Source: Herbiconiux oxytropis
Lineage (GTDB): Bacteria > Actinomycetota > Actinomycetes > Actinomycetales > Microbacteriaceae
Reading direction: 5' to 3'
DNA length: 64,000 bases
NCBI RefSeq assembly: GCF_024979315.1
Contig: NZ_JANLCK010000006.1
Coordinates: forward strand, 124,001-188,000
The notes under the pieces are model-generated. The model ran no database searches. It was not told the origin of the DNA and saw nothing but the letters and a program-made list of their open reading frames with translations. The position numbers and the translations under genes were made by a program. How positions within the stretch are numbered: position 1 is the stretch's first letter; each line of letters opens with the position of its first letter. Shown here piece after piece: positions 16,102 to 51,189 of the stretch.

Positions 16102-16299
16102 TCATCCCGACAGTGGTTGGAGCGTGATCACGGAGTGGCATACTTTCCGCCCACTCGCATCCCTCGCCCTCCGCACGGCAAGCGCCCATCCGGCCCGGAA
16201 CGCCACCGCCGCGAGTCCGGCCACCACCGCGACTGCCCCGCCGAGCACCTCCCACCGCGCCTGGGAACTCACCCCTCCACGCCACCCCACGCCGCTCAC
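16102..16299 (-). CDS. possible 65-aa membrane peptide
   Basis: This GTG-started frame lies 22 bp downstream of the aldehyde dehydrogenase on the same strand. It has one plausible hydrophobic helix, VLGGAVAVVAGLAAVAF, followed by basic residues. There is no ribosome-binding site and no family is recognised, so it may be chance in GC-rich DNA. Confidence 0.22.
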   Translation of the reverse strand: MSGVGWRGGVSSQARWEVLGGAVAVVAGLAAVAFRAGWALAVRRARDASGRKVCHSVITLQPLSG

Positions 16300-16321
16300 C
16301 CCGAGGAGGCGGCAGCAGGAC

Positions 16322-17830: not shown

Positions 17831-17931
17831 CGTGTGCAGCTCCTGTTCGGGGTGCCCGGTGACGCAGGCGACGTGCTCGTCGCGGCAGTTTGTCATGACT
17901 TCGCGTCGATCGTCAAGAAAAGCGAATGAAA

Positions 17932-17953
17932 GGGCCACGCCGTACTGTGGCCC
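17932..17953. promoter_or_regulatory. dyad over the LysR start region
   Basis: GGGCCAC (17932-17938) and GTGGCCC (17947-17953) are perfect 7-bp inverted arms ending one base before the LysR ATG. A TACTGT box at 17943-17948, six bases before the ATG, looks like the -10 of a leaderless transcript, so the dyad overlies the promoter. This suits autorepression by the LysR protein, but is inference. Confidence 0.5.
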
Positions 17954-17954
17954 C

Positions 17955-18964: not shown

Positions 18965-18983
18965 CTATGCCTAATCTGCATAG
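18965..18983. promoter_or_regulatory. LysR-type operator candidate
   Basis: CTATGC, 7 bases (CTAATCT), GCATAG: a perfect dyad that includes a T-N11-A LysR box. It is 55 bp upstream of the monooxygenase start and directly after the LysR gene. Confidence 0.6.
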
Positions 18984-19037: not shown

Positions 19038-20144
19038 ATGAAGCACTTGCGCTCTGGCGACACCGGCACCGACTTCCAGCTCGGCCTGTTCAGCGCGAAC
19101 TCCCCGGGCGGGCTCGCCATGACCAAGGCGCCCGAACGCTGGTCGGGCTCGTGGGACGACAACCGTGCACTCGCCGTGATGGCCGACGAGGCCGGGATCG
19201 ACTTCCTGCTCCCCATCGCGCGCTTCATCGGCTACGGCGGCGAGACCGACTTCCACGGCGAGATCCTCGACCCGCTCTCGTGGCAGGCCGGGCTCCTGGC
19301 CGCCACGGAGCGGATCGGCGTCTTCGCCACCGTGCACACGGCCTTCAACCACCCCGTGATCACCGCGAAGGCCCTCGCGACCAACTCGCAGATCGGCCAC
19401 GGCCGCGCGGGCATCAACATCGTGGCCGGGTGGAACCAGCCCGAGTACGAGGTCTTCGGCGTCGACCTGCCGAGCGAGCACGACGCCCGCTACGCCCTCG
19501 CCCAGGAGTGGTGGGACATCGTGCGCACCGTGCTCACCGCCGAGGAGCCCTTCGACTGGAACGGCGAGCACTACTCGCTGAAGCACGTCATCGGCAAGCC
19601 GAAGTCGTTCGGCGGGCTGCCCCCGGTGCTGAACGCCGGTTCGTCGACCCAGGGGCGCGAGTTCGCCGCCCGCAACGCCGACTACGTCTTCACCGTGGTG
19701 GGCGCTCCCGAGGACGGCGCCCCCATCGTGCAGTCGGTCACGGCGGATGCCAGGGCCCGCGGCCGTGACACCGGCGCGATCACCCTCACCCACGTGGTCT
19801 GCCGACCCACCGACGCCGAGGCGGAGGAGTTCCTGCACTACTACGCCGACGAGCAGGCCGACTGGGAGGGCATCGACAACGCGATGCGCCTGCAGGGCCT
19901 GCATGCGAAGACCTTCACCCCCGAGATGCTCGGCTCGTTCCGCAGCCGCTTCGCCGCGGGCTACGGCAGCGCGCCGCTGGTGGGCAGCCCGGACACCATC
20001 GCCGCCCTCATCCAGCGCTACGCCGACGCCGGATTCGCCGGCACCACGCTGAGCTTCATGAACTACCTCGACGAGCTGCCCTTCTTCGTCGAGGAGGTGC
20101 TGCCCCGGCTGGAGGGCCGCGGCATCCGGGGAGAGCGACGATGA
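19038..20144 (+). CDS. flavin-dependent monooxygenase, LLM class (RutA/SfnG-like)
   Basis: This luciferase-like protein of 368 aa uses reduced FMN and O2. The TIM-barrel features include DFLLPIARFIGYGG, IGVFATVHTAFNHP, GRAGINIVAGWNQPEYEVFG and VLNAGSSTQGREFA. These features resemble pyrimidine oxygenase RutA and the sulfone monooxygenase SfnG rather than coenzyme F420 enzymes. It needs an NAD(P)H:flavin reductase, and none is adjacent. It heads the operon and overlaps the hydrolase by 4 bp. A paralog with long stretches of identical sequence lies at 39716-40822. The substrate is unknown; the fold allows ring opening of heterocycles or C-S/C-N cleavage. Confidence 0.88.
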   Translation: MKHLRSGDTGTDFQLGLFSANSPGGLAMTKAPERWSGSWDDNRALAVMADEAGIDFLLPIARFIGYGGETDFHGEILDPLSWQAGLLAATERIGVFATVHTAFNHPVITAKALATNSQIGHGRAGINIVAGWNQPEYEVFGVDLPSEHDARYALAQEWWDIVRTVLTAEEPFDWNGEHYSLKHVIGKPKSFGGLPPVLNAGSSTQGREFAARNADYVFTVVGAPEDGAPIVQSVTADARARGRDTGAITLTHVVCRPTDAEAEEFLHYYADEQADWEGIDNAMRLQGLHAKTFTPEMLGSFRSRFAAGYGSAPLVGSPDTIAALIQRYADAGFAGTTLSFMNYLDELPFFVEEVLPRLEGRGIRGERR

Positions 20145-20992
20145 GCACCGGCCTGGGCACCGGCACGAGCACCGGTACCGGCACCGGCACCGTCCGGTAC
20201 GGCTACGCCGCCACCCCGCTCGGCCAGCTGCACTACGCCGAGGCGGGTGAGGGCCCCGCCCTTCTCCTTCTGCACCAGACCCCGCGCTCGCTCGATGAGT
20301 ACGCCGAACTGCTGCCCCTCGTGGCCACCGAGTACCGCGCCATCGCGATGGACATGTACGGCTTCGGCCAGAGCGCCAAGCCTGAGGGCCCGCAGAGCAT
20401 CGAGCAGTTCGCCGCGGGCGCGCTCGCACTGGCCGACGCCCTCGGCCTCGAGCGCTTCGCCGTGATGGGTCACCACACCGGTGCGGTCGTGGCCGTCGAG
20501 CTGGCGGCCGCCGCCCCGGATCGGGTGGACGCCGTCGTGCTCTCCTCGCCCGCCTACACGGATGCCGCCTACCGCGAGGCCCACGCGAACGGCCCGGGCG
20601 TCGACGAGGCCGAGACCGCCGCCGACGGGTCGCACCTCACCACGCTGTGGTCCCTCCGCGCTCCTTATTACCCGGGTGCACGGCCCGACCTCCTCGACCG
20701 CTTCATCCGCGACGCCCTCGCCCCCGGGGTCGTGCCCGCCGAGGGCCACCTCGCCTGCGCGCGCTACGCGATGGAGGAGCGGATAGGCCTCGTCACCGCG
20801 CCTGTGCTCGTCATCGGCGCCTCCGAGGATCCGTTCGCCCTGCCCGACGTGGCCAAGACCGCCGACGCCCTCGTGCACGCCGTGGTCGTGGAGACGGCCG
20901 TGATCGAGGGCGGCACCATCCCGCTTCTGGAGCACAAGAGCGGCGAGGTCGCCGCCGTGGTGCTGCCGTTCCTCGCCGGGAGCCGATCGTGA
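20141..20992 (+). CDS. alpha/beta hydrolase with atypical nucleophile elbow
   Basis: This 283-aa protein has an alpha/beta hydrolase fold: LLLLHQTPRSLDEYAELLP, AIAMDMYGFGQSAKP, and an elbow that reads MGHHTGAVVAVELA. The nucleophile position, normally Ser, Asp or Cys in G-x-Nu-x-G, is His here. The Asp strand PVLVIGASEDPFALPD and the late His (LLEHKSGE) are kept. It may be a non-serine enzyme, for example a cofactorless oxygenase/lyase-type member, or a binding protein. The N-terminus carries a Gly-Thr repeat (residues about 4-18). It is coupled to the flavin monooxygenase and to the ABC gene by 4-bp overlaps. Confidence 0.85.
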   Translation: MSTGLGTGTSTGTGTGTVRYGYAATPLGQLHYAEAGEGPALLLLHQTPRSLDEYAELLPLVATEYRAIAMDMYGFGQSAKPEGPQSIEQFAAGALALADALGLERFAVMGHHTGAVVAVELAAAAPDRVDAVVLSSPAYTDAAYREAHANGPGVDEAETAADGSHLTTLWSLRAPYYPGARPDLLDRFIRDALAPGVVPAEGHLACARYAMEERIGLVTAPVLVIGASEDPFALPDVAKTADALVHAVVVETAVIEGGTIPLLEHKSGEVAAVVLPFLAGSRS

Positions 20993-22581
20993 ACGCATCC
21001 GAGCCCGCCCTCATCCGGGTCGAGAACCTCGTCAAGCGCTTCCCCGGCGTCGTGGCCCTCGACGACGTGAGCCTCGAGATCCGTGCCGGGGAGGTGCTCG
21101 CGCTCACCGGCGAGAACGGATCGGGCAAGTCCACACTCTCGAAGATCGTCGGCGGCCTCTACCAGCCGGATGGCGGGCGCATCCTCGTCGACGGGGTCGA
21201 GCGTCGGCTCGCCAACCCGCACGCGGCCCTCGAGCACGGCATCGTGCTGATCAGCCAGGAGCTCACCCTCGCACCCACCCTCACGGTGGCCGAGAACGTG
21301 CTGCTCGGCCGCCTTCCCCGCCGCGGCGGCGCGGTCGACTGGCCCGAGACCCGGCGCCGGGCGGCAGAGGTGCTCGCCGAGCTCGGCGTGCACATCGATG
21401 TGGAGCGCCGGGTCGACTCGCTGAGCGTGGAGCTGCAGCAGGAGGTCGAGATCGCCCGCGCCATCTCCACCCGCGCGCGCCTGCTCATCCTCGACGAGGC
21501 CACGAGCTCGCTCTCGGAGGGTGCCACCCTCCGGCTGCTCGACATCGTGGCCGGTCTCTCGGCGCGCGGCGTGGCGGTGCTCATGATCACGCACCGCATG
21601 CCCGAGATCTACGCGAGCTGCTCGCGAGCGGTCGTGCTCCGCGACGGCGCGCTCGCGGGCGAGGCCCCGCTTCCGGCCACCGCCGAGCACGAGCTCGTGC
21701 GCATGATGGTGGGCCGCGAGCTGCTCGACTACTACGGCAGCCGCGTGGCCGCGCCCGCGGGCGTCGTGCTCGAGGTCGAGGGGCTGCACACCGCCGACGG
21801 CGCCCTGCAGCCCGTGGCCTTCGAGGTGCGTGCGGGCGAAGTGCTGGGCGTGGCCGGACTCGTCGGATCGGGCAAGGCCGAACTGGCCATGGCCCTCGGC
21901 GGCGCCATCCCGGCGCGCGGCGACGTGCGGGTGGGCGGCAGGCCGCTGCGCCTCGGCAGCCCCCGGCGCGCGATCGCGGCCGGCATCGGCTACGTGCCGG
22001 ACGACCGCCGCCGCGAGGCCCTGTTGCCGCCGCGGAGCGTGGCCGAGAACATCAGCTTCGCCTGGCTCGGCACGATCACCCGGTTCGGCTTCGTGCGGGT
22101 CGCTGCCGAGCGCCGCGACGTCGCGAAGGTGGTCGCCGACTACGGCGTGAAGACCTCCTCGCTCGACAAGCGCATCACGCTGCTCTCGGGCGGCAACCAG
22201 CAGAAGGCCATCCTCGGCCGCACCTTCGCGCGAGGCTGCCCGGTCTACGTGCTCAACGAACCCACCCGCGGCGTCGACGTCGGCTCGAAGAGCGCGATCT
22301 ACGGCTACATCCAGGCCCTCGCCGAGAAGGGCGCCGCCGTGGTGCTGATCTCCTCCGAGCTGCCCGAGCTGATCGGTCTCTCGGATCGCGTGGCCGTGTT
22401 CCATCACGGCGGCATCCGCGCCGTCGTCTCGGGCGACGACCTCACCGAGGAGGTGCTCGGGGCCTACGCCGTGAGCGGCACCCGGCCGGGCGACCACCCC
22501 TCCGTGGTCATCTCCACCGACACCCCCACCAGCGCAGACACCCCCACCAGCGCCGTCGCCGGCGCGGGAAGGACACGATGA
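20989..22581 (+). CDS. ribose-type ABC importer, tandem ATPase
   Basis: This 530-aa ATPase has two ABC domains, as in RbsA/MglA (CUT2 class). Domain 1 has Walker A GENGSGKST and a Walker B LLILDEATSSLSEGA; domain 2 has GLVGSGKAEL, the signature LSGGNQQKAILGR and NEPTRGVDVGSK. It energises uptake of a sugar-like or other polar substrate with the permease at 22578 and binding protein at 25871. The GTG start overlaps the hydrolase stop by 4 bp. The C-terminus ends in a short TDTPTSADTPTSA repeat just before the coupled permease start. Confidence 0.92.
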   Translation: MNASEPALIRVENLVKRFPGVVALDDVSLEIRAGEVLALTGENGSGKSTLSKIVGGLYQPDGGRILVDGVERRLANPHAALEHGIVLISQELTLAPTLTVAENVLLGRLPRRGGAVDWPETRRRAAEVLAELGVHIDVERRVDSLSVELQQEVEIARAISTRARLLILDEATSSLSEGATLRLLDIVAGLSARGVAVLMITHRMPEIYASCSRAVVLRDGALAGEAPLPATAEHELVRMMVGRELLDYYGSRVAAPAGVVLEVEGLHTADGALQPVAFEVRAGEVLGVAGLVGSGKAELAMALGGAIPARGDVRVGGRPLRLGSPRRAIAAGIGYVPDDRRREALLPPRSVAENISFAWLGTITRFGFVRVAAERRDVAKVVADYGVKTSSLDKRITLLSGGNQQKAILGRTFARGCPVYVLNEPTRGVDVGSKSAIYGYIQALAEKGAAVVLISSELPELIGLSDRVAVFHHGGIRAVVSGDDLTEEVLGAYAVSGTRPGDHPSVVISTDTPTSADTPTSAVAGAGRTR

Positions 22582-23615
22582 ACCAGTCCACAGCGGAGCG
22601 CACCGACGTGAAGGCGGCGCCCCCGGCCCGCCGTCCGGTGCTCTCGCGCATCGCGGCCGCCACCGGCCCTGCCACCGGCGCGATCGCGGGCATCGTCATC
22701 CTCACGGTCATCCTCGCCCTCACCCAGCCGGTGTTCCTCACCTGGGGCAACATCACGAACCTCGTGGGCGCCAACAGCGTCACGCTCGTGCTCGCCCTCG
22801 GCGCCACCTTCGTGCTGCTCGCGGGTGGCCTCGACCTCTCGATCGTGGCCGCGAGCGCCGCCACCGGCATGGTGTTCGGCCTCATGCTGCAGAGCGGAGC
22901 CGACGCCCTCCCGGCCATCGCCGTCACGCTCCTCGCGGGCCTGGTCTTCGGACTGCTCAACGGCGTGCTCACGAGCTACGCGCGGATCCCGTTCCTCGTG
23001 GTGACCCTCGGCACCGCCTCGCTCTTCGCGAGCATCGCCCTGCTGCTTAACGACGGAAAGACCATCAACGTCTTCGACTTCCCCGGCTTCGCCTTCGTGA
23101 ACGACTTCGTGCTGGGGCAGGCGTTCGGGATCCCCTTCATCCTCATGTTCGACATCGTGCTCGTGGTCATCACCGCGGTGGTGCTCCGCTACACCAAGTT
23201 CGGCCGCGGCATCTACGCCGTGGGCTCCAACGCCGAGGCGGCGCGGCTGAACGGCATCAACGTGCGGCTCACGACGATGCTCGTCTACGTGATCGTGGGC
23301 TTCACCGCCGCGCTCGCCTCGCTCGTGCAGGTGGGCCGGCTCGCCGGGGCGGCCCCGACCTTCGACGCCACGCTGCTGCTGACGGTCATCGCCGCCGTGC
23401 TGATCGGCGGCACCGCCTACACCGGTGGCGAGGGCGGCGTGGGCGGCACGGTGCTCGGTGTTCTCTTCCTCGGCGTGATCCAGAACGGGCTGACGCTCAC
23501 GAGCGTCTCCTCCTTCTGGCGGGGCGCGGTCAACGGGATCGTGCTCATCCTCGCCGTCGCGCTGGGAGTGGCGCGACAGTACGGCTGGCTGCGATTCGGG
23601 CGGAAAGGACGATGA
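22578..23615 (+). CDS. ribose-type ABC importer, permease
   Basis: This membrane protein of 345 aa is of the BPD_transp_2 family, with about 8-10 hydrophobic segments. Family features include ITNLVGANSVTLVLALGATFVLLAGGLDLS (class marker region), YTKFGRGIYAVGSNAEAARLNGI and the GGTAYTGGEGGVGGT loop. It forms the channel with the ATPase upstream; coupling is through ATGA overlaps on both sides. The GMC oxidase gene is inserted between this gene and the binding protein, linking import to oxidation. Confidence 0.92.
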   Translation: MNQSTAERTDVKAAPPARRPVLSRIAAATGPATGAIAGIVILTVILALTQPVFLTWGNITNLVGANSVTLVLALGATFVLLAGGLDLSIVAASAATGMVFGLMLQSGADALPAIAVTLLAGLVFGLLNGVLTSYARIPFLVVTLGTASLFASIALLLNDGKTINVFDFPGFAFVNDFVLGQAFGIPFILMFDIVLVVITAVVLRYTKFGRGIYAVGSNAEAARLNGINVRLTTMLVYVIVGFTAALASLVQVGRLAGAAPTFDATLLLTVIAAVLIGGTAYTGGEGGVGGTVLGVLFLGVIQNGLTLTSVSSFWRGAVNGIVLILAVALGVARQYGWLRFGRKGR

Positions 23616-25729
23616 CGATGACCGACACGCACACCCTCACCCAGAACGACCACACCCACGGCAGTGCCACTCATGGCGCCGGTCGGGAGCTGCAGGACGA
23701 GATCGTCAGGGCGGTCTGCGACGCCCTGCTGCCCGCGCTCGAGCCCCCGGCCGACGCGCTCGGCGACCCCGTGCTCGAGGCCTACTACCGCGACGGCGCC
23801 GTCGCGCGAGGCATCGACGTGGCCGTGGCCGCCGCGGTGCCGACCCTCGACGCGACGCTCCGCCGCGCGATCGCGGGACTCGCCGAGCACCTCGAGGCGA
23901 CCGGATTCCTCGAAGCGGATGCCGACCCCGAGTCGGGGGAGCGGGTCGCGATGCTGCGCGCGGCCGGCGACGCGTCGCTCGCCCACCGCAACGCGGTCCG
24001 CCAGCTCAAGAGCATGGCGATGGGCACCTTCGTCAACGCGGTCGACGAGACCGGCACGAACCCCGTCTGGCCCGCCCTCGGCTACGGCCCGCTCACCTAC
24101 CGTCCGGCCACACCGGGCGAGACGCCCAAGAACCTCCGGGTCGAGACGCCGAAGGCGGGTGACGAGGTCGTGCTCACCGCCGACGTGGTCGTGGTGGGCT
24201 CGGGTGCCGGTGGCGGCGTGATCGCCGCTCGCGCCGCGGGGGCCGGCCTCTCGGTCGTCGTGCTCGACGCCGGTCCGCACGTGGTCGACGCCAAGCGCAC
24301 CCAGCACGGCGCCGAGGGCGGACCGCTCTTCCTCGGCCGCGGTGGCCTGTTCTCCGAGACCGGGCAGATGGGCATCCTCGCCGGCTCGGCCGTGGGAGGC
24401 GGCACCCTCATCAACTCGATGGTGAGCCTGCGGCCGCCGCAGAAGATCCGCGAGCTGTGGGCGAGTGAGGGCCTCGAGGGCCTCGACGGCCCGGAGTTCG
24501 ACGTGCACCTCGACCGGGTCTGGAGCCGCCTCGGCGTGAACACCGAGGCCTCGCATCACAACGCGAACACCCGCGCCATGATCACGGGCCTCGCCGAGCT
24601 CGGCTACGCCCACGAGCGGCTGCCGCGCAACTTCGTGGCCGACGGCGTGAGCGAGTTCTGCCCGTTCTGCGCCGAGGGCTGCACGCACCAGCAGGGCTAT
24701 CGCGCCTCGACCGTGGTGACCTACCTCGACGACGCCGTCGCTTCGGGGGCCCGCGTGTTCGCCGGGGCCTGGGTCGACCGGGTGCTCGCGGCCGACGGCC
24801 GGGCAGCCGGCGTGGTCGGCACCATCGAGACCGCCGACGGCCCCCGTCCGCTCCGCGTGGACGCCCCCACGGTGGTCGTGGCCGCCGGCGGCATCGAGTC
24901 GCCGGCGCTCCTGCTGCGCTCGGGCATCGGCGGACCGGCCGTGGGGCGGAACCTGCGCCTGCACCCGGCCTGGATCGTGACCGGCGTCTACGACGAGGCC
25001 ATCGAGGCCTGGCACGGCCAGATCCAGTCGGCCGTGAGCTTCGACCTCACCGAGGTGGTCGACGGCGAGGGGTTCCTGGTGGAGTCGCTCTCGCTCAACA
25101 TCGGCAGCTGGGCGGGGCTCAGTCCCCTCGCCGAAGGGCGCACCGCTCGCGACCGGATGCGCTCCTTCGACCGCTACGCCACCTGGCACGGCGTGGCGCA
25201 CGACCACGGCGCCGGCCGGATCGTGCTCGACGACGAGGGCCGTGCGGCCCTGATCTGGGATCTCGACGACGACATCGACTACCGCGTGGGCGTGCGCGCG
25301 CACCAGGAGCTCGCCCGCATGCACCGGGCCGCGGGCGCGAAGGAGATCTTCACCTTCCTCTGGCGCGACCTGCGCTGGCGCGACGGAGAGGACTTCGAGG
25401 CGTTCCTCGAGGCGCTCGCCGCGGAGCCGCCGCGCGACCACCTCGCGATGTCGGCCCATCAGATGGGCTCGTGCCGGCTCGGCTCGGACCCGGCCGTCTC
25501 GGTGGCCGACGGCCGCGGGCAGCTGCACGACGTGGCCGGGGTGTGGATCGGCGACGCCTCGGCGCTGCCGACCGCTCCGGGGGTGAACCCGATGATCACC
25601 GTCATGGCGGTCGCCGAGCGCACCGCGGAGGCGCTCGTCGCCGCAGCCGCTCCCGCCGTGACCGCTCCCGCCGTGACCGCTCCCGCCGCGACCGCCCCCG
25701 CCCGCACCTCGCCTCGAGAGGCAGACTGA
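23612..25729 (+). CDS. long GMC-family alcohol oxidase
   Basis: This flavoprotein of 705 aa resembles long-chain fatty alcohol oxidases: a helical N-terminal domain (residues about 20-175), the FAD motif VVVVGSGAGGGVIAARAAGAG, GSAVGGGTLINSM, a Cys cluster CPFCAEGC, and C-terminal HQMGSCRLGSDP with NPMITVMAVAER. It should oxidise an alcohol to an aldehyde with O2 or another acceptor. It overlaps the permease by 4 bp. The C-terminus is an Ala/Pro/Thr/Val repeat coded by three 15-bp units. The aldehyde dehydrogenase at 26979 is a likely partner. Confidence 0.88.
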   Translation: MTMTDTHTLTQNDHTHGSATHGAGRELQDEIVRAVCDALLPALEPPADALGDPVLEAYYRDGAVARGIDVAVAAAVPTLDATLRRAIAGLAEHLEATGFLEADADPESGERVAMLRAAGDASLAHRNAVRQLKSMAMGTFVNAVDETGTNPVWPALGYGPLTYRPATPGETPKNLRVETPKAGDEVVLTADVVVVGSGAGGGVIAARAAGAGLSVVVLDAGPHVVDAKRTQHGAEGGPLFLGRGGLFSETGQMGILAGSAVGGGTLINSMVSLRPPQKIRELWASEGLEGLDGPEFDVHLDRVWSRLGVNTEASHHNANTRAMITGLAELGYAHERLPRNFVADGVSEFCPFCAEGCTHQQGYRASTVVTYLDDAVASGARVFAGAWVDRVLAADGRAAGVVGTIETADGPRPLRVDAPTVVVAAGGIESPALLLRSGIGGPAVGRNLRLHPAWIVTGVYDEAIEAWHGQIQSAVSFDLTEVVDGEGFLVESLSLNIGSWAGLSPLAEGRTARDRMRSFDRYATWHGVAHDHGAGRIVLDDEGRAALIWDLDDDIDYRVGVRAHQELARMHRAAGAKEIFTFLWRDLRWRDGEDFEAFLEALAAEPPRDHLAMSAHQMGSCRLGSDPAVSVADGRGQLHDVAGVWIGDASALPTAPGVNPMITVMAVAERTAEALVAAAAPAVTAPAVTAPAATAPARTSPREAD
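25649..25693 (+). repeat. three 15-bp tandem units at the GMC oxidase 3' end
   Basis: Three direct copies of a 15-bp unit (GCTCCCGCCGTGACC, third copy with one change) code an APAVT-type tail. The unit length is a multiple of three, so copy changes would not shift frame. Confidence 0.8.
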
Positions 25730-25772
25730 CCCCGGCCGGCCCGCTCCCCGCCCCTCCCCACCAGCCCCTCCT

Positions 25773-25798
25773 CGGGCTCCCGTGCATCCGCACGCCCG
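25773..25798. promoter_or_regulatory. bulged hairpin between GMC oxidase and binding-protein genes
   Basis: CGGGC, a TCCC bulge, GTGC, loop ATCC, GCAC, GCCCG form a compact stem; outer 8-bp arms at 25768-25775 and 25807-25814 offer a competing fold. It lies in the only sizeable gap (141 bp) of the operon and may partly terminate upstream message or protect the abundant binding-protein message. Confidence 0.45.
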
Positions 25799-25870
25799 AA
25801 AACAGGCCGAGGAGCCCCCGCATCACCCCGAAAGCACCAATCAACACATCCTGAAGAGAGGTCGTTCGAC

Positions 25871-26884
25871 ATGAAGTCCAAGACACCCGTGGCCATCGCG
25901 GCGCTGATCCCCGCAGCCCTCCTGCTCGCCGCCTGCAGCGGCGGCACCACCGATGCGGAAGGCGGCGGCGACGACTCCGGCGCCTGGAGCCTCGGCTACT
26001 CCACGCCGGTCGGCGCGCAGCCCGGCCAGCAGCAGATCGCCGAGACCATCGGGGCGGCCACCACCGAGCTCGGCTGGAGCAACGAGATCCTCGACGCCAA
26101 CCTCTCGGTCGACAAGCAGGTCTCCGACGTGCAGACCATGCTGCAGCTCGGCGTGAACGCGATCGGACTGTGGGCGCTCGACTCGAACGCCCTGCGGAGC
26201 GCCTACGCCCAGGCCGCCAGCCAGGACGTCAAGCTCATCGGCCTCAACAGCGAGGCCGAGGAGTTCGACGGCACCGTCTCGTGGCAGACCCACGTGTGCC
26301 TCGACGGCGGGCCGAGCGACCAGACCGCCGAGTACATCGCCTCGGCGAAGCCAGACGCCGAGGTGATCGTGATCGGCGGGCCGCCCGTCGCCTCGATCAC
26401 CGCCACGGTCGAGTGCTTCACCGAAGCGGCTGAGGCTGCGGGCATCACGATCGTGAACCAGACCGACAACACCGCCGACGACAGCGCGACCGCGGCCTCG
26501 ATCGTCTCCGACCTGCTGCTGCAGTACCCGGACGTCGACGCGATCTGGTCGTACAACGACGCTTCGGCACTCGGCGCCTCCTCGGCCATCACGCAGGCCG
26601 GCGGCACCATCTACGACGGCTCGAACGACGGCGTCATCACGATCGGCATCAACGGCGACGCGGATGCCATCCAGGCCGTCGAGCAGGGCCGCCTCACGGG
26701 CACCTGGGACCCGAACCCGCCGGCCACCGGCTGGGCGATGGTGAAGGCCGCCGAGCTGCTGAAGGACGGCGAGGCCGCCGACCTGATCGTGGAGGCCACG
26801 TTCTGGACGGCCGAGAACCTGGCCGACTACGTCGCTCCCGAGGATCGGGTCTACACGCTCGACACGATCCCGCTGGTCGAGTAG
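25871..26884 (+). CDS. ABC importer substrate-binding lipoprotein (periplasmic-binding type I)
   Basis: This 337-aa lipoprotein has a signal peptide with lipobox LLAAC at residues about 18-22, so it is exported and anchored outside the membrane. The mature part has the type I sugar-binding fold (PF13407-like), with alternating motifs such as QPGQQQIAETI, DVQTMLQLGVNAIGLWAL and VITIGINGDADAIQAVEQG. It delivers substrate to the ATPase/permease pair upstream. A good GAAGAGAGG site precedes the ATG. A short GC hairpin follows the stop. Confidence 0.92.
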   Translation: MKSKTPVAIAALIPAALLLAACSGGTTDAEGGGDDSGAWSLGYSTPVGAQPGQQQIAETIGAATTELGWSNEILDANLSVDKQVSDVQTMLQLGVNAIGLWALDSNALRSAYAQAASQDVKLIGLNSEAEEFDGTVSWQTHVCLDGGPSDQTAEYIASAKPDAEVIVIGGPPVASITATVECFTEAAEAAGITIVNQTDNTADDSATAASIVSDLLLQYPDVDAIWSYNDASALGASSAITQAGGTIYDGSNDGVITIGINGDADAIQAVEQGRLTGTWDPNPPATGWAMVKAAELLKDGEAADLIVEATFWTAENLADYVAPEDRVYTLDTIPLVE

Positions 26885-26889
26885 CGATC

Positions 26890-26912
26890 GCCGCGCGACC
26901 CGGCAGCGCGGC
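26890..26912 (+). terminator. hairpin after the binding-protein gene
   Basis: GCCGCGC (26890-26896), 9-base loop, GCGCGGC (26906-26912), starting 5 bases after the stop codon. With no T tract it may be a partial terminator or a 3' stabilising stem. Confidence 0.5.
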
Positions 26913-26925
26913 ATCCCAGCACCAC

Positions 26926-26957
26926 CGATCCACAGATCCACCGATCCACCGATCCAC
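26926..26957 (+). repeat. 8-bp tandem repeat in the aldehyde dehydrogenase leader
   Basis: Four copies of CGATCCAC (one reading AGATCCAC) run head to tail between the hairpin and the AAGAAAGG ribosome-binding region of the gene at 26979. The length is not a multiple of three and the stretch is noncoding. Confidence 0.8.
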
Positions 26958-26978
26958 CTGAAGAAAGGCGACGACGGC

Positions 26979-28427
26979 ATGAGCGCACCCACCCGGCTCC
27001 TGATCGGCGGCCGATGGGCCGACGCGAGCGACGGAGGCACGAGGGAGACCCTCGACCCCGCCTCCGGACTCGTGATCGGCACGGCGGCCGAGGCCACTCG
27101 TGACGACGTCGACGAAGCGGTCCGTGCCGCGCGGGAGGCCTTCCGGTCTCCCGCGTGGCGCGGCCTCACCCCGGATGCCAGGGGCCGGCTGCTCTGGCGC
27201 GTCGCCGAGCTGATCGAGCGCGACGCCGACGAGCTCGCCGCCCTCGAGGTCGCCGACTCCGGCCAGCCCATCGGCATGGCCCGCGACGTCAACGTGCCGC
27301 TCGGCGCCCAGGTCTTCCGCTACTACGCGGGCTACGCCACGAAGCTGGAGGGGAAGACCTCGCAGGTCTCCATCCCCGGCCAGCTCACCTACACGCTGCG
27401 GGAGCCGATCGGCGTCACCGCGCTCATCACGCCCTGGAACGTGCCCTTCGCCATCGCGGCATGGAAGCTCGCGCCGGCCCTCGCCACCGGCAACGTCGCC
27501 ATCCTGAAGCCGGCCGAGCAGACCCCGCTCTCGACGGTGCGGCTCGCCGAGCTGTGCGAGGAGGCCGGCCTGCCTCCCGGTGTCGTGAGCCTTCTGACCG
27601 GCGGACCCGAGGTGGGCAAGGCCCTCGTGGCGCACCGCGGCGTGGGCAAGGTCTCGTTCACCGGATCGACCGAGGTGGGGCAGGAGATCGTGCGCTCCGC
27701 GGCCGGCAACCTCAAGCGGGTCTCGCTCGAGCTCGGCGGCAAGGCGCCGAGCATCGTCGCGGCCGACGCCGACATCGACGCCGCCGTGCAGGGCAACCTG
27801 CAGGGCGCGGCCTTCAACTCGGGACAGGCCTGCGGTGCCTACACGCGCTTCTACGTGCACGAGTCCCGGCTGGCGGAGTTCTCGGAGAAGATCGCCGCAG
27901 CCGCCGAGAGGCTCGTGATCGGCCCGGGCAGCGACCCCGACACCGTGCTCGGCCCGCTCATCTCGGAGGAGCAGCTCGAGAAGGTGCACACCGCGGTCCA
28001 GGCAGCGGTCGCCGGAGGGGCGACCCTCCTCACCGGCGGATCGCGCGCCGACGGCGCCCTCGCCTCCGGCTGCTTCTACCGCCCCACCGTGCTCACCGGA
28101 GTGACCGACGACATGGCGGTGGCGCGCGACGAACTCTTCGGGCCCGTCATCCCGATCTTCGGTTTCACCGACCTCGACGAGGCGATCGAGCGCGCCAACG
28201 ATTCCGACTACGGTCTCGCGAGCGTGGTGTGGACGAGCGATCTCCGCACCGCCCACCGGGTGGGGGCCGAGGTGCGGGCCGGCACCGTGTTCGTCAACCA
28301 GCTGCCCCTCATCGACCCCGCTGCCCCGTGGGGTGGCATCGGCCTGAGCGGCTGGGGCCGCGAGATGGGCTCCTACGCCATCGACGCCTTCACGGAGACG
28401 AAGAGCGTCTTCGTCAACCTCATCTGA
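26979..28427 (+). CDS. aldehyde dehydrogenase (NAD(P)+)
   Basis: This 482-aa aldehyde dehydrogenase has TPWNVPFAIAAWKLAPALATGN (cofactor region), FTGSTEVGQEI, the general-base Glu in LELGGKAPSIV, and the catalytic Cys in NSGQACGAYTRF. It converts an aldehyde, probably the product of the GMC oxidase in the same operon, to the acid for the CoA ligase at 30021. The ATG follows AAGAAAGG. It differs clearly from the aldehyde dehydrogenase at 16322, so the two may act on different intermediates. Confidence 0.92.
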   Translation: MSAPTRLLIGGRWADASDGGTRETLDPASGLVIGTAAEATRDDVDEAVRAAREAFRSPAWRGLTPDARGRLLWRVAELIERDADELAALEVADSGQPIGMARDVNVPLGAQVFRYYAGYATKLEGKTSQVSIPGQLTYTLREPIGVTALITPWNVPFAIAAWKLAPALATGNVAILKPAEQTPLSTVRLAELCEEAGLPPGVVSLLTGGPEVGKALVAHRGVGKVSFTGSTEVGQEIVRSAAGNLKRVSLELGGKAPSIVAADADIDAAVQGNLQGAAFNSGQACGAYTRFYVHESRLAEFSEKIAAAAERLVIGPGSDPDTVLGPLISEEQLEKVHTAVQAAVAGGATLLTGGSRADGALASGCFYRPTVLTGVTDDMAVARDELFGPVIPIFGFTDLDEAIERANDSDYGLASVVWTSDLRTAHRVGAEVRAGTVFVNQLPLIDPAAPWGGIGLSGWGREMGSYAIDAFTETKSVFVNLI

Positions 28428-28444
28428 GGGCGGACGGACCGCAC

Positions 28445-29608
28445 ATGCTCGATTCCGCATACATCGTCGGCGCCGCCGAGACTCCGTACACCCGGCATCC
28501 TGAACCCGGCGTCAGCACCTCTGGTCTGCTCGTGCAGGCCGCCCGCGAGGCCGTCGCCACGGCAGGGCTCCGCTGGTCAGACGTCGACGGCCTCGGGGTG
28601 TCGAGCTTCACGCTCGGCCCCGACCACGCCGTCGACCTCGCCTGGCGTGCGGGCCTGGGCCCCCTGAGCTGGCTCATGGAGGACACCAACGGTGGCGCGA
28701 GCGCCTTGAACATGCTGCAGCACGCCGAGCTCGCCATCCGCTCGGGACAGGCCTCGACGATCGTGCTCGTCTCGGGCGACCGGATGGACGCGGCCGCGTT
28801 CCGGATGCTCGTGGAGCACTACAACCGCGCGACCGAGGAGCACCTCGCGCCGCTGCCGATCACGGGCCCGAACGCGCTGTTCGCGCTCCTCACCCAGCGG
28901 CAGATGACGGCGCTCGGGCTCTCGCGGCGCGACTACGGGCACATCATCACCGCGCAGCGGGAGTGGGCGGGGCTCAACCCGGGCGCCGTGTACCGTGCGC
29001 CGCTCAGCCTGGAGGAGTACCTCGACGCACCGCTCGTGGCGCCGCCGCTCGGGAGGTACGACTGCGTGCCCCCGGTGAGCGGGGCGGATGCCATCGTGCT
29101 GACCGCCGGCCCGGCCACAGCCGGAATCGGCGGGTCCGGCCGTGCCGTGCGGGTGCTCGCGGTGGAGACGACCATCGGGATCGACGACCAGGATGCCGAC
29201 GGGCTCACCACCGGACTCGTGCAGGCAGCGCCGCGCGCCTGGGAGCGCTCCGGACTCGGGGCCTCGGACATGGACGTGTTGAGCGTCTACGACGACTATC
29301 CCGCCATGGCGCTCGCGCAGCTCATCGACCTCGGCGCGATCGCCGCCGAGGACGCCCAGCGCGACCTGGCCGAGCGGATCGGCACCCGGCGTCTGCCCGT
29401 GAACACGGCGGGCGGCCAGCTCTCGGCCGGGCAGGCGGGAGCCGCCGCCGGCATGCACGGCGTGGTCGAGACCTACCGCCAGCTCGCCGGCATCGCGGGG
29501 GAGCGGCAGGTCGCGGACGCGCGCTTCGGGGTCGTGACCGGGTACGGCATGGTGCTGTACCGATACGGGGCCTGCGCGAACGTGGCGGTCCTGGAGGGCG
29601 TGCGATGA
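28445..29608 (+). CDS. thiolase-fold protein without the thiolase cysteine (SCP-x/Ltp2-like)
   Basis: This 387-aa protein of the SCP-x/lipid-transfer thiolase group starts MLDSAYIVGAAETPYTR and ends with the NTAGGQLSAGQAGAAAG glycine-rich region. The nucleophile position of real thiolases (Cys in a CxSG-like motif) reads DTNGGASALNML, with no Cys, so Claisen thiolysis is unlikely. The gene overlaps a DUF35 gene by 4 bp. In steroid side-chain degradation, the cysteine-free Ltp2 works with a DUF35 domain as an aldolase; a similar role here is inference. Confidence 0.85.
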   Translation: MLDSAYIVGAAETPYTRHPEPGVSTSGLLVQAAREAVATAGLRWSDVDGLGVSSFTLGPDHAVDLAWRAGLGPLSWLMEDTNGGASALNMLQHAELAIRSGQASTIVLVSGDRMDAAAFRMLVEHYNRATEEHLAPLPITGPNALFALLTQRQMTALGLSRRDYGHIITAQREWAGLNPGAVYRAPLSLEEYLDAPLVAPPLGRYDCVPPVSGADAIVLTAGPATAGIGGSGRAVRVLAVETTIGIDDQDADGLTTGLVQAAPRAWERSGLGASDMDVLSVYDDYPAMALAQLIDLGAIAAEDAQRDLAERIGTRRLPVNTAGGQLSAGQAGAAAGMHGVVETYRQLAGIAGERQVADARFGVVTGYGMVLYRYGACANVAVLEGVR

Positions 29609-30024
29609 GCGGCCCCGCCTTCTTCCAGCGGTGCACCTCGTGCTCGGCCGTCTCGTTTCCGCCCCGGCTCGCCTGCCGGGCGTGCGGTGGGGCGGCGTTC
29701 GAGCAGATCGAGGCCGGGCCCGGTGTCGTGGAGGAGGTCACGGAGCTCCCCGGCGGCCTCCGCATCGCCTCGGTGCGGGCCCGCGGCGTGCTCGTGGTCT
29801 GCTCGACGCCCTCGGCGGTCGAGGCCGGCGCCTCCGTGGCTCTCGTCGACTCACCGCCCGGCCCGGGCGACTCCCCAGCAGCCGCCGCAGTCGCCTCCGC
29901 CCCAGACACCGCCCCCACCGCCAGCATGACCGCCCAGGCGGTCCACCTCCCGGGCTCCGCCCGCGCGGAGCCCGCCGCACTCTTCACCACCACCGCTCAC
30001 ATCGAGAACGAGGGAACCCCATGA
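29605..30024 (+). CDS. DUF35 OB-fold / zinc-ribbon protein
   Basis: This 139-aa protein has the rubredoxin-like zinc ribbon CTSC-x(12)-CRAC at residues about 10-28, followed by an OB-fold acyl-CoA-associated domain (PGVVEEVTELPGGLRIASVR). The middle and tail are Ala/Pro-rich and longer than the minimal domain. DUF35 proteins bind a thiolase-fold partner and shape its active site; the partner here is the coupled gene at 28445. It also overlaps the CoA-ligase start by 4 bp. Confidence 0.87.
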   Translation: MSGPAFFQRCTSCSAVSFPPRLACRACGGAAFEQIEAGPGVVEEVTELPGGLRIASVRARGVLVVCSTPSAVEAGASVALVDSPPGPGDSPAAAAVASAPDTAPTASMTAQAVHLPGSARAEPAALFTTTAHIENEGTP

Positions 30025-31613
30025 CCCGCATCCCCCAACTGGACCGCCCGCTCGCCGACTGCACCATCCCGGCCATGCTCCAGCGCCGGGCCGACGAGAT
30101 GCCCGACGACCTGCTGCTGAGGTCCGGCAGCGAATCGCGCACGGGTGCCGAGCAGCTGCGCGTGGTGCGCGGGTTCGGCGGGGTGCTCGCCGACGCGGGT
30201 GTGGGCGTGGGCGACCGGGTGGCGATGCTCTCGGGCAACCGGCTGGAGCTGCTCGACATGATCCTCGCCGCCGCCTGGGTCGGGGCCGTCGCCGTGCCCC
30301 TCAACCCCGCCCTCACGCCGCCGCAGCTCCGGCATGCGCTGCTCAACAGCGGTGCGCGCCTGCTGCTCGCCGACGACCAGGGGCTCGCCGGATTCGCCAG
30401 GCTCGACGACCCGGTCGCGGTCGAGCGGGTGCTGAGCTTCGAGGCGCCCGCCGTCGCTGGAGCGAGTGTGCTGTCGCTGCCCGTCGAGCCCATCCCGGCC
30501 GTCTCGCGCGAGGTGGAGGCCGCCGCCGTCGCACCCTCCGACATCGCCGCCATCCTCTACACCTCAGGCACCACCGGGCCCTCGAAGGGCGTGCTCTGCC
30601 CGCACGCGCAGTTCTACTGGTGGGGCCGCAACCAGACGCTGCACATGCGCTTCACCCGCGACGACGTGCTCTTCACCACGCTGCCGCTGTTCCACACCAA
30701 CGCCCTCAACGCCTTCATCCAGGCGGTGGTGTCTGGCGCGTCGTTCGTGGTGGCGCGCCGGTTCTCGGCAAGCCGCTTCTGGGGCGAGGCCGCCGAGTGC
30801 GGAGCCACGTTCACGTTCCTGCTCGGGGCGATGGTGGGCATCCTGCTCAACCGGCCCGAGAGCGAGTACGTGCCGCACACCGTGCGGGCGGCCCTCGCGC
30901 CCGCCACGCCCGCGCGCATGCTGCCGGAGTTCAAGGAGCGGTTCGGGGTGAACCTCGTCGACGCCTTCGGCTCGACCGAGACCAACCTCGCGATCGCGGT
31001 GCCGGTCGACGAGCTGCGCCCGGGCTACCTCGGCGTCTCGGTGCCGGGCTTCGACAACCGGGTGATCGATCCGGAGAACGGCGAGCCGCTGCCCGACGGC
31101 GTGCCGGGCGAGCTGCTCATCCGGAGCGACCAGCCCTACGCGCTCGCCCGCGGCTACTTCGGCATGCCGAACGAGACGGTGAAGGCGTGGGACGACCTCT
31201 GGTTCCACACGGGTGACCGCGTGGTGCGGGAGGAGGACGGCTGGTTCCGCTTCCTCGACCGCATCAAGGACATCATCCGGCGGAGGGGCGAGAACATCTC
31301 GTCGGTCGAGGTCGAGTCGACCGTGCTGCAGCATCCGGGCGTCGCGGCCGTCGCGGCATACGCGGTGCCGTCCGAGCTCGGCGAGGAGGAGGTGCAGGTC
31401 TCGGTCGAGGTCAAGGCGGGGGTGGAGCTCGATCCGCGGGAGCTGATCGAGTTCGTCGAGCCGCACCTGCCGCCGTTCGCGGTGCCGCGCTTCATCGTGT
31501 TCGAGCATGACCTGCCCCGCACCGCCAACGGCAAGGTCAGCAAGGCCGAGCTCCGCAAGCGCGGCGCCGCGGTCGACCGCTGGGACCGCGAGTCGGAGAC
31601 GGCCGACCGATGA
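30021..31613 (+). CDS. AMP-dependent acyl-CoA ligase
   Basis: This ANL-superfamily ligase of 530 aa has the ATP motif LYTSGTTGPSKGVLCPH, the A5-type DAFGSTETNLAI, the hinge FHTGDRVVREEDGWFRFLDR and the C-terminal catalytic Lys in PRTANGKVSKAELRKR. It forms an acyl-AMP and then acyl-CoA. The placement after the aldehyde dehydrogenase and thiolase-like genes suggests it activates the acid made in the operon. Start and stop overlap neighbours by 4 bp. Confidence 0.92.
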   Translation: MTRIPQLDRPLADCTIPAMLQRRADEMPDDLLLRSGSESRTGAEQLRVVRGFGGVLADAGVGVGDRVAMLSGNRLELLDMILAAAWVGAVAVPLNPALTPPQLRHALLNSGARLLLADDQGLAGFARLDDPVAVERVLSFEAPAVAGASVLSLPVEPIPAVSREVEAAAVAPSDIAAILYTSGTTGPSKGVLCPHAQFYWWGRNQTLHMRFTRDDVLFTTLPLFHTNALNAFIQAVVSGASFVVARRFSASRFWGEAAECGATFTFLLGAMVGILLNRPESEYVPHTVRAALAPATPARMLPEFKERFGVNLVDAFGSTETNLAIAVPVDELRPGYLGVSVPGFDNRVIDPENGEPLPDGVPGELLIRSDQPYALARGYFGMPNETVKAWDDLWFHTGDRVVREEDGWFRFLDRIKDIIRRRGENISSVEVESTVLQHPGVAAVAAYAVPSELGEEEVQVSVEVKAGVELDPRELIEFVEPHLPPFAVPRFIVFEHDLPRTANGKVSKAELRKRGAAVDRWDRESETADR

Positions 31614-33076
31614 GCGAGTCGTCGGCCCTGCTCGCGCTCGACGCCACCGGGCAGGCAGAGGCGGTGCGCAGCGGGCTCGTGACCGCCCGGGAGCTGCTCT
31701 CGCTGTCGCTCGCGCGCATCGAGGAGGCGGATGCCGCGGTGAACGCGGTCGTGTTCGTCGACGAGGATGCGGCGGAGCGCGCGGGAGCCCCTGCCGGAGC
31801 CGGCTCTGAGGCTGCCCCGTTCGCCGGGGTGCCGATCCTGCTGAAGGATCTCGGTGCGGCCGCGGTGGGGCATCCGGATCACCAGGGGAGCGTCGCGCGG
31901 AAAGACGCGGGCTGCAGCTTCGACCACGACTCGGCCGTCGTGCGGCGGCTTCGCGCGGGCGGCTTCGTGCCGATCGGCCGCACCAACTCGGCCGAGTTCG
32001 GGCTGCACTCCGAGACCAGGAACCTCGCCTACGGGCTCACCCGCAACCCCTGGGACGTGAGCCGGTCGGCGGGCGGTTCCTCGGGCGGCTCGGCGGCCGC
32101 GGTGGCGGCGGGCATGACGGCGCTCGCGCAGGGCACCGACGGGGGTGGATCGCTGCGCAACCCGGCGGCGCACTGTGGGCTCGTGGCGCTCAAGGTGAGC
32201 CGCGGCACCATCAGCGGGGCGCCCGGCGGGGAGTCGCTGTACGGGATCTCGCAGACCGGGGTGCTCACGCGGTCGGTGCGGGATGCGCGGGCCGTGCTCG
32301 CGCTGCTGGCCGGCCGGGAGCCGGGAGACGCCGTGGTGTCGCCGGGGCTCGTGCGCGGGGGACCGTCTGCCGGCGCGGCGCTCGGAGCTGCTCACGAGGC
32401 GGCGCACGGCGCTGCTGCGCGGCCGCTCCGCATCGGGGTGCTCGACCACGATCCGGGCGGGGTCTACGACGTCTCGCCCGAGATCCGCTCGGCCGTGCTC
32501 GAGACGGCCGGCCTGCTCGAAGGGCTCGGGCACGTCGTGGAGCCCGCCTGGCCCGCGGCGATGTTCGTCGACGACTTCGCCGAGCGGTGGTTCGCCGCGC
32601 TCCTGCCGTTCGCGAAGGTCGCGAGGGATCGCGCGGCTGCAGCGGCGGAAGCAGCCGGGGCGACGGCGCGGTTCGATCCGATCACCGAGCACTGGGCCGC
32701 GCTCGCGGCCTCGCAGACCTCGGCGGAGCACGTGGAGGCGATGGGCTGGTTCGACGGGTTCCGGCGGCGCGTGCAGTCCTGGTGGCAGGAGTTCGACGTG
32801 CTGCTGTGCCCGGTGCTCCCGCTGCAGCCCCAGCCGGCCGGCCAGTTCGCCGACGGTGCCGACGGCATCGCGGAGTCCATCCGCATCCTGCGCTTCACGC
32901 CGCAGGCCAACATGACGGGCCTGCCGGCGGTGAGCGTGCCGGCGGGGTTCGCGGGTGGTGTGCCGGTGGGGGTGCAGCTCGTGGGGGCCTACGGTGCCGA
33001 CCTGCAGCTGCTCGATCTCGCGGAGTCGCTCGAGGAGGCGCGGCCGTGGCGCACCTCGGTGCTCGCGCCGGCTTAG
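31610..33076 (+). CDS. amidase-signature family amidohydrolase
   Basis: This 488-aa protein has the amidase signature. The catalytic Lys is in PILLKDLGAA, and the cis-Ser and nucleophile Ser are in the SAGGSSGGSAAAVAAGM ... GTDGGGSLRNPAA regions. The usual GGSIRxPA is read GGSLRNPA. It cleaves a carboxamide or similar bond, releasing an amine or ammonia, and suggests a nitrogen-containing substrate for the operon. It is the last gene of the coupled series (4-bp overlap with the ligase). Confidence 0.9.
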   Translation: MSESSALLALDATGQAEAVRSGLVTARELLSLSLARIEEADAAVNAVVFVDEDAAERAGAPAGAGSEAAPFAGVPILLKDLGAAAVGHPDHQGSVARKDAGCSFDHDSAVVRRLRAGGFVPIGRTNSAEFGLHSETRNLAYGLTRNPWDVSRSAGGSSGGSAAAVAAGMTALAQGTDGGGSLRNPAAHCGLVALKVSRGTISGAPGGESLYGISQTGVLTRSVRDARAVLALLAGREPGDAVVSPGLVRGGPSAGAALGAAHEAAHGAAARPLRIGVLDHDPGGVYDVSPEIRSAVLETAGLLEGLGHVVEPAWPAAMFVDDFAERWFAALLPFAKVARDRAAAAAEAAGATARFDPITEHWAALAASQTSAEHVEAMGWFDGFRRRVQSWWQEFDVLLCPVLPLQPQPAGQFADGADGIAESIRILRFTPQANMTGLPAVSVPAGFAGGVPVGVQLVGAYGADLQLLDLAESLEEARPWRTSVLAPA

Positions 33077-51187: not shown

Positions 51188-51189
51188 CC

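Follow-up and report, generated by a model that had tools for sequence, protein, structure and literature searches.

Among described systems, the closest to the locus reported here are the iad loci for auxin degradation and a group of thiolase-fold steroid aldolases. According to the accessible part of a preprint (PMC12633357), the iad genes are iadC (reductase), iadDE (Rieske oxygenase), iadF (acyl-CoA synthase), iadH and iadJ (dehydrogenases), and iadG and iadI, which are annotated as a ketothiolase and a kynurenine formamidase, respectively. The same portion gives C10H9NO4 (dioxindole-3-acetate), then C8H7NO2, C8H7NO3 and C7H7NO, as intermediates en route to anthranilate, and states that deleting iadF, iadG, iadH or iadI lowered anthranilate. 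For the aldolases, the sections consulted of PMC12329534 give Tyr294 and Tyr344 as catalytic residues of TcLtp2, and Tyr302 and Cys304, in a YDCY motif, as those of CtSal. Here we describe an operon of Herbiconiux oxytropis that combines features of both systems. It lies in a stretch of 64,000 nucleotides, called the window below (positions 124,001 to 188,000 of contig NZ_JANLCK010000006.1, assembly GCF_024979315.1; C29:124001-188000, where C29 is our label for the contig).

An earlier note on this DNA, made from the letters alone, had described at window positions 19038-33076 a coupled catabolic operon of eleven plus-strand genes with seven 4-bp overlaps behind a LysR gene, perhaps for a nitrogen-containing substrate and matching no named pathway. 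All eleven open reading frames (ORFs), here named A to K in order (Table 1), were found with the families given in that note, as were the overlaps and the LysR gene, and both the coupling and a nitrogen-containing substrate are backed by gene order and context. The absence of a named pathway holds for the complete set, but not for its core of CoA ligase, thiolase-fold and DUF35 proteins, near which isatin hydrolase, thiamine diphosphate enzyme and aldehyde dehydrogenase genes lie; this core is common to iad-type auxin-degradation loci and related clusters. On balance, we favor reading the operon as the upper part of a catabolic island that takes the isatin route and acts on an indole-3-acyl compound, most probably indole-3-acetic acid (IAA) or a derivative of it, via a retro-aldolase formed by H and I. 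We are less sure of auxin itself as the substrate than of an indole/isatin route with a retro-aldolase.

The predicted retro-aldolase pair H-I

The best match of H in the Protein Data Bank (PDB) was 6ok1 (E 2e-26), a chain with Tyr294 in a YDHF motif plus Tyr344, which we take to be the steroid aldolase TcLtp2. H retains the catalytic tyrosine of the Ltp2/Sal aldolases as Tyr282, in the motif YDDY, with Asp284 at the position of Cys304 of CtSal and Gln330 at that of Tyr344 of TcLtp2, where CtSal likewise has a glutamine (Gln352). Neither of the residues serving as the general acid in Ltp2/Sal (Tyr344 or Cys304) is kept in H in this alignment. Contrary to the earlier description of the protein as cysteine-free, H contains Cys207 and Cys377; there is no cysteine in residues 1-206, which is presumably where a thiolase nucleophile would be. 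The protein encoded by the next gene, I, carries the C4 zinc motif CxxC-x10-CxxC, as does the DUF35 partner of the Ltp2/Sal aldolases. An AlphaFold2 model of H was discarded (pLDDT 30.6). Because the tyrosine is kept within YDDY, the N-terminal region has no cysteine, I is a DUF35 partner and the nearest structure is that of an aldolase, we predict from sequence that H-I is a retro-aldolase and not a thiolase.

Besides H, the YDDY motif was found in its relatives from two sister metagenome-assembled genomes (MAGs), Rhodococcus erythropolis, Nonomuraea, two Caballeronia, Burkholderia multivorans, Shinella, Roseibium, Agrobacterium and two further genomes (G174 and G167). In a draw of 396 genomes from the phylum, seven had a match to H at E 1e-35, three with YDDY and the other four with YDCY, YDAF, YDSF and YDCF; five weaker matches from relatives (L004-L008) were also without YDDY. 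An isatin hydrolase at E 1e-50 accompanied the match in two of the three YDDY genomes and in one of the four others (on another contig), numbers that are too small to weigh.

An isatin module on the same contig

The H. oxytropis genome contains four matches to the cyclase family PF04199, the best of which is on the contig of the operon at C29:75389-76168. This cyclase matched the isatin hydrolases of the PDB at E 4e-73 to 2e-65, and was 56-62% identical to the cyclases of Rhodococcus, Nonomuraea and G174 and 41-51% to the five others compared. Its sequence HIGTHIDAPVH fits the isatin hydrolase motif HxG[T/A]HxDxPxH, for which, as for the activity of isatin hydrolase A, we rely on the accessible text of PMC6117287. 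The adjoining gene encodes a thiamine diphosphate (ThDP) enzyme with 58-60% identity to the ThDP enzymes of Rhodococcus and Nonomuraea. Around the pair are genes for a PaaK-like ligase, an FAH protein, an HsaA-type monooxygenase (below the model cut-off, and just 24% identical to acyl-CoA dehydrogenase (ACAD)-type monooxygenases of Caballeronia), a Peripla_BP_6 binding protein with importer genes, a CrtI-like protein and, in the same island, a salicylyl-CoA 5-hydroxylase/oxidoreductase fusion (1110 bits against a cut-off of 1078).

The closest named records to the window are two Herbiconiux MAGs, nzgw89 (G004) and nzgw90 (G008). In nzgw89 the isatin island and the operon are continuous: on a single contig, a part collinear with C29:66-87 kb is followed, about 0.8 kb later, by one collinear with window 16.3-33 kb; the aldehyde dehydrogenase (ALDH) gene that we call ALDH0 is positioned between the two. 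Window positions 1-16300 are the right end of a stretch of about 53 kb that is missing at that place in nzgw89, and the spacing differs on a contig of nzgw90; the GC content is 0.659 in this left 16.3 kb versus 0.721 in 16.3-34.8 kb.

Among 16 genomes of the genus, A (E 1e-60), the cyclase (E 1e-40) and H (E 1e-200) were each found in H. oxytropis and these two MAGs only; since the three are closely related, their co-occurrence counts as one event or a few. The cyclase was present in 7 of 60 relatives, with a ThDP relative directly beside it in all seven (the match in G049 is partial) and in three further loci fetched, and therefore the lower module, cyclase and ThDP enzyme, exists without the operon. 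A Rieske alpha subunit (PF00848) was not detected in the H. oxytropis genome, which is 98% complete, and was found in 4 of 14 control genomes.

Relatives of H, I and J in other bacteria

A plasmid of Roseibium aggregatum (L085) carries genes for a MarR regulator, a reductase, Rieske alpha and beta subunits, an AMP-binding protein, a thiolase, a short-chain dehydrogenase/reductase (SDR), a cyclase and a second SDR. By gene order, this is the iad order and the relative of H is IadG; these Roseibium genes, and not Variovorax IadG, are our iad reference. The Roseibium thiolase has the sequence YDDYP and is 37% identical to H, and the cyclase, next but one after it, is 96% identical to isatin hydrolase A, for which there is a crystal structure (5nnb), with 10 differences in 257 positions. 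We searched 72,556 records in all for the cyclase (E 1e-30; 60 listed of 78 records with a match). An IadG-type thiolase (E 1e-80) was present in 36 plasmid records, and the 20 of these that were listed all have an isatin-hydrolase-type cyclase as well; as many are from the same genera (Roseibium/Labrenzia, Sulfitobacter), they amount to about six independent genera.

Higher identities to H were found in two other clusters. Plasmid pLRE138 of R. erythropolis R138 (L029) has genes for LysR, cyclase, ThDP enzyme, ABC importer, thiolase, zinc ribbon (DUF35), ligase and ALDH, with 62% identity to H and 52% to J, and Nonomuraea gerenzanensis (L030) has the same order, with 64% identity to H. In Nonomuraea, the cyclase and ThDP enzyme were called by Pfam, the thiolase, ligase and ALDH by tblastn, and the DUF35 protein and importer from ORF starts only. 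Both clusters share with Herbiconiux the LysR, cyclase, ThDP, thiolase-fold, DUF35, ligase and ALDH genes; they differ in their importer, in the 3-hydroxyanthranilate dioxygenase genes that follow, and in that the stretches fetched hold no relative of the flavin monooxygenase A or the GMC oxidase E.

Other genera have related arrangements. B. multivorans has a ligase, a transporter, a thiolase and a DUF35-like ORF, with a cyclase and the subunits of an indolepyruvate oxidoreductase encoded farther along. Plasmid pR76 of Agrobacterium pusense has a ThDP enzyme (55% to that of Herbiconiux), thiolase, SDR, cyclase, trpC, MarR, a ligase (43% to J) and an amidase (31% to K). Shinella has a ligase, a thiolase, an IadH-like DUF35-SDR fusion and a cyclase. 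In Caballeronia SBC1, the cyclase is on another plasmid than the relative of H. As a separate observation, the ALDH beside the thiolase of Caballeronia Sq4a (L031:13610-15048) consists of two overlapping tblastn pieces without a listed coding sequence and looks frameshifted. Genes annotated as trpC lie inside isatin/anthranilate-type clusters at L031:20456-21241 and L084:29068-29859, and perhaps recycle anthranilate to tryptophan.

The flavin monooxygenase A and its paralogue

The earlier note had placed A, a luciferase-like flavin monooxygenase (LLM), with RutA and SfnG. These are indeed its nearest kin, both among PDB matches (E about 1e-34) and in Foldseek searches with an AlphaFold2 model (pLDDT 84.5; about 27% identity on the predicted fold), but its scores are far under both model cut-offs (152.4 bits against 498.3 for RutA). 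Thr105, Asn134, Leu65 and Val136 of the RutA O2 pocket, with the roles assigned to them in the portions seen of PMC7662398 and PMC10005588, align with Thr98, Asn127, Leu58 and Val129 of A; among 15 sequences, Thr98, Asn127 and Val129 were invariant and Leu58 nearly so. This suggests that A may perform RutA-like flavin-N5 chemistry on a carbonyl compound. There are ten flavin reductase matches in the genome, none on the operon's contig.

The window encodes a paralogue of A (71% identity), LLM2, whose gene in nzgw89 comes immediately after the amidase gene K and is convergent with it. In H. oxytropis, it belongs to a second block, mostly on the minus strand (window 39716-52314), with genes for a PaaX-type regulator, CoA-transferase subunits, a deaminase-domain protein and a BMP-type importer, and an IclR gene on the plus strand.

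Seven loci of 9-21 kb, probably of freshwater or soil bacteria (L012-L018), have an LLM with 61-64% identity to A. A cyclase was present in 3/7, a PaaX relative in 6/7, a CrtI-like protein in 4/7, an FAH protein in 3/7 and the salicylyl-CoA-hydroxylase-type fusion in 2/7; the only AMP ligase was a distant one (26-27% to J), in two loci. In four loci with an LLM of lower identity to A (43-46%; L019-L021, L023), none of these five companions was present, and an amidase relative was found in one locus. L012, L016 and L017 combine LLM, cyclase and CrtI-like genes but show no relative of the ThDP enzyme in the stretches covered, and the LLM might substitute for it there.

Proposed pathway

The formula of dioxindole-3-acetate minus that of isatin (C8H5NO2) equals acetic acid; therefore, CoA activation and a retro-aldol reaction would give isatin and acetyl-CoA. 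J would form the CoA thioester of a beta-hydroxy acid of the 3-hydroxy-2-oxindole-3-acetate type, and H and I would cleave this dioxindole-3-acetyl-CoA by a retro-aldol reaction, not by thiolysis, with Tyr282 as the base. The isatin hydrolase and ThDP decarboxylase on the same contig, followed by an ALDH (G or ALDH0), would then convert isatin to isatinate, 2-aminobenzaldehyde and anthranilate, a sequence that fits because the iad intermediates C8H7NO3 and C7H7NO fit isatinate and 2-aminobenzaldehyde, respectively. In the iad loci, the SDR part of IadH would reduce isatin to C8H7NO2. Candidates for making the beta-hydroxy acid are A, LLM2 and the HsaA-type monooxygenase. A may take the place of the Rieske oxygenase found in the iad loci by oxygenating a carbonyl compound derived from indole, and the GMC oxidase, amidase, hydrolase and importer may bring in alcohol, amide or conjugated forms. 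We infer these roles of A to F and K, the substrate and each reaction in this organism from gene content, motifs, linkage and co-occurrence, which were observed directly.

Several observations weigh against this pathway. In H. oxytropis itself the operon lies about 53 kb away from the isatin module, around which the scanned stretches hold no further copy of the candidate LysR operator. Of six records in which the relative of H exceeds 50% identity, only three have a cyclase on the same replicon (among the cyclase matches listed). Genome G167 has relatives of H and J, yet no isatin hydrolase at E 1e-50, and speaks most clearly against isatin being required; in G394, J has a relative (52-53%) but H has no match at E 1e-35. 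The seven LLM loci have neither H nor a ThDP enzyme within reach (0/7) and a cyclase in only three, so an A-type LLM need not share a route with H. No DUF35-SDR protein is encoded in the operon, and the Shinella fusion used as query was unmatched at E 1e-5 in the window and four other stretches of the genome. Our literature search also found no assay of any YDDY protein.

More tentatively, and with considerable doubt, we suggest that YDDY thiolase-fold proteins with DUF35 partners, including IadG, might form a new clade of CoA-dependent retro-aldolases for substrates other than steroids; that the island might encode a third aerobic route of the auxin type, the first oxygenation being carried out not by a Rieske (iad) or IacA-type (iac) enzyme but by a RutA-type flavin-N5 oxygenase (A or LLM2); and that an alpha/beta protein without the serine might take part in oxindole chemistry.

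A retro-aldol reaction offers a clear alternative for a step that is poorly understood in the degradation of auxin by bacteria, one that brings together a YDDY site without the thiolase cysteines, a DUF35 partner and the mass balance, and YDDY would be a sequence mark for finding such chemistry. If the pathway is correct, the genus Herbiconiux joins the bacteria that break down indole acids by the isatin route, and uses another oxygenase to do so; some auxin-degradation loci have already been reported from the phylum Actinobacteria (PMC9613470, in the part consulted).

Alternative readings

The isatin route could serve another indole (skatole, indole, tryptophol or another 3-substituted compound), with H-I acting on a different beta-hydroxyacyl-CoA and auxin not being the physiological substrate. 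The GMC oxidase, two ALDHs and amidase would suit alcohols, aldehydes and amides; G167 groups ligase, binding protein, amidase and importer genes with the start of a nitrilase-type gene; and other Actinobacteria have cyclase-ThDP pairs without strong matches to H or the LLM. We nevertheless consider this reading unlikely, as a retro-aldol reaction that yields isatin requires a two-carbon acid at C3, as in IAA, and relatives of H are located in iad-type loci. The skatole ska cluster of Rhodococcus was considered and rejected as a counterpart: the accessible part of PMC13101512 describes a flavoprotein of group E (styrene-monooxygenase-type), and not an LLM, as the enzyme that starts this pathway.

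A further reading, in line with the earlier note, is a pathway of its own that has nothing to do with indoles and in which the RutA-like enzyme acts first on a polar N-heterocycle or modified sugar. Despite the conserved O2 pocket of A and an importer of the ribose type, this is improbable in view of the low RutA score, the continuity of isatin module and operon in nzgw89 and the homologues of H to J in isatin-type clusters; the guess of a polar molecule or modified sugar rests only on the importer family. Pyridoxine degradation was also rejected, E matching pyridoxine 4-oxidase weakly (E 1e-6) and the importer genes of the downstream block scoring below cut-off with the 'B6' models.

Catabolism of steroid or terpenoid side chains, with H-I as an Ltp2/ChsH2-type aldolase for a cyclic beta-hydroxyacyl-CoA, would account for 6ok1 as the best match of H and for the HsaA model matching the ACAD-type monooxygenase of the island. 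However, that match scores 203.9 against a cut-off of 450, H has YDDY and not YDHF or YDCY, and its closest relatives sit in isatin/anthranilate-type clusters; to our knowledge, the isatin hydrolase, ThDP enzyme and salicylyl-CoA-hydroxylase-type fusion are not steroid genes. We therefore regard it as very improbable. The NCBIfam names (acetyl-CoA acetyltransferase, lipid-transfer protein; every one below cut-off) would make H a conventional thiolase of the SCP2 type or a lipid-transfer protein with no catalytic role, which is hardly credible for a protein with no cysteine in its first 206 residues, an Asp at the CtSal Cys304 position, a conserved YDDY and DUF35 partner, and an aldolase as its nearest solved relative.

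Operon layout and remaining genes

As shown in Table 1, the operon is tightly packed: 7 of the 10 junctions are 4-bp ATGA/GTGA overlaps, and the remaining ones leave 141 bp before F, 94 bp before G and 17 bp before H. All eleven genes occur in unchanged order in nzgw89, and thus the arrangement is conserved; in the stretches of nzgw90 examined, the same genes are split, one piece running from A into the start of C and the other from the end of D through K. As the order is kept in related genomes, the grouping is unlikely to be due to chance. The LysR gene ends 90 bp 5' of the operon, and its product is 42% identical to the LysR preceding the cyclase-ThDP genes of pLRE138 and 38% to that of Nonomuraea. 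For the inverted repeat between the LysR gene and A, no second copy was found when up to 2 mismatches were allowed, either in the window or in four other stretches of the contig. Directly 3' of the operon, in H. oxytropis and nzgw90, is a gene for an FAD_binding_3 monooxygenase (window 33208-34764), which was not found at that place in nzgw89.

Table 1. Features of the operon and its surroundings (window positions).
Feature	Position	Strand	Basis
ALDH0, aldehyde dehydrogenase, divergent from LysR	16322..17830	-	ALDH models; GEAC and ELGGK; start picked by eye inside ORF 16322-18040
LysR-type regulator	17955..18947	+	Pfam HTH_1 and LysR_substrate
Candidate LysR operator, inverted repeat CTATGC-N7-GCATAG	18965..18983	.	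Same in all three Herbiconiux sequences compared
A, luciferase-like flavin monooxygenase (RutA/SfnG kin)	19038..20144	+	PF00296
B, alpha/beta hydrolase fold, His at nucleophile elbow (GHHTG)	20141..20992	+	Abhydrolase_1
C, ATPase of ribose/arabinose-type ABC importer, two ABC domains	20989..22581	+	Family models
D, permease of ABC importer	22578..23615	+	BPD_transp_2
E, GMC-family FAD alcohol oxidase/dehydrogenase	23612..25729	+	GMC_oxred_N and _C; HQMGSCRLG at 616, GVNPM at 657
F, substrate-binding lipoprotein of importer	25871..26884	+	Peripla_BP_4; lipobox-like start (by eye)
G, aldehyde dehydrogenase	26979..28427	+	Aldedh E 1e-170; GQAC at 282
H, thiolase-fold protein, predicted retro-aldolase, Tyr282 in YDDY	28445..29608	+	Best PDB match 6ok1; motif alignments
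I, DUF35 partner, zinc ribbon CxxC-x10-CxxC	29605..30024	+	zf-ChsH2
J, AMP-forming CoA ligase, PRK06155-like	30021..31613	+	701.5 bits, slightly below cut-off 722
K, amidase-signature hydrolase	31610..33076	+	PF01425; GGSSGGS at 155, LLKD at 77
LLM2, paralogue of A (71%)	39716..40822	-	Sequence comparison
PaaX-type regulator adjoining LLM2, upstream end approximate	40902..41714	-	PaaX domains in C-terminal half of window ORF 40902-42431 (-)

B, which the earlier note rightly called an odd hydrolase, has the histidine at its nucleophile elbow in all five aligned sequences (5/5), its GHHTG aligning with the GHDWG of epoxide hydrolases. Its Shinella relative lies about 23 kb from the iadFGHI-like genes of the plasmid and adjoins ALDH, racemase and organic hydroperoxide resistance genes; those of Rhodococcus YL-1 and Streptomyces have other gene contexts, and the LLM adjoining the Streptomyces relative is not close to A (no match to A; 23-25% to two others compared). 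The conversion of isatin by A to isatoic anhydride in a Baeyer-Villiger reaction, followed by B, is chemically possible; we rejected it, the gene pair being the sole evidence and B having no Ser nucleophile.

The ALDH G is 43-46% identical to the ALDHs of the Nonomuraea and Shinella clusters and 30% to that of R. erythropolis. In G167, a J relative (45%) is found together with a binding protein (31%), an amidase (31%), an ABC ATPase (42%), a permease (43%) and the start of the nitrilase-type gene, and the H relative (57-59%) is on a separate contig from this group. The grouping supports the view that import and amide handling may belong to the kit.

Comparison with known systems

The pairs TcLtp2-ChsH2 and CtSal-Shy resemble H-I in thiolase fold, DUF35 partner and catalytic tyrosine, and differ in having YDHF or YDCY where H has YDDY, and in their steroid substrates. 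RutA and SfnG are like A in fold and O2-pocket residues; the low identity, the sub-cut-off scores and the gene context set them apart. A type II Baeyer-Villiger LLM that likewise adjoins an alpha/beta hydrolase is described in the part consulted of a paper on Sphingobium AntQ-1 (PMC9836352). In contrast to that pair, B carries a His at the nucleophile elbow; another LLM of the AntQ-1 plasmid, not the one named in PMC9836352, is 38% identical to A.

In titles and abstract openings of open-licence papers, we found neither an aldolase role for IadG nor an isatin cluster like that of Herbiconiux. The correspondence with the iad loci covers three proteins: IadG has its counterpart in H, with YDDY in both; the ligase IadF in J (31% to the Roseibium protein, 43% to the PRK06155-type ligase of Agrobacterium); and IadI in the C29 cyclase (45% to Roseibium IadI), which is encoded outside the operon. 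Anthranilate is the product of the iad locus, and the same product would be expected for Herbiconiux. On the other hand, I is a DUF35 protein alone where IadH is a DUF35-SDR fusion, the Rieske oxygenase IadDE has no alpha-subunit counterpart in the genome, and a LysR gene precedes the operon instead of a MarR regulator. The LLM, odd hydrolase, GMC oxidase, amidase, ribose-type importer and ThDP enzyme are additional to the iad set. The Herbiconiux operon is therefore not iad itself; its core is an iad-like isatin route in a new combination.

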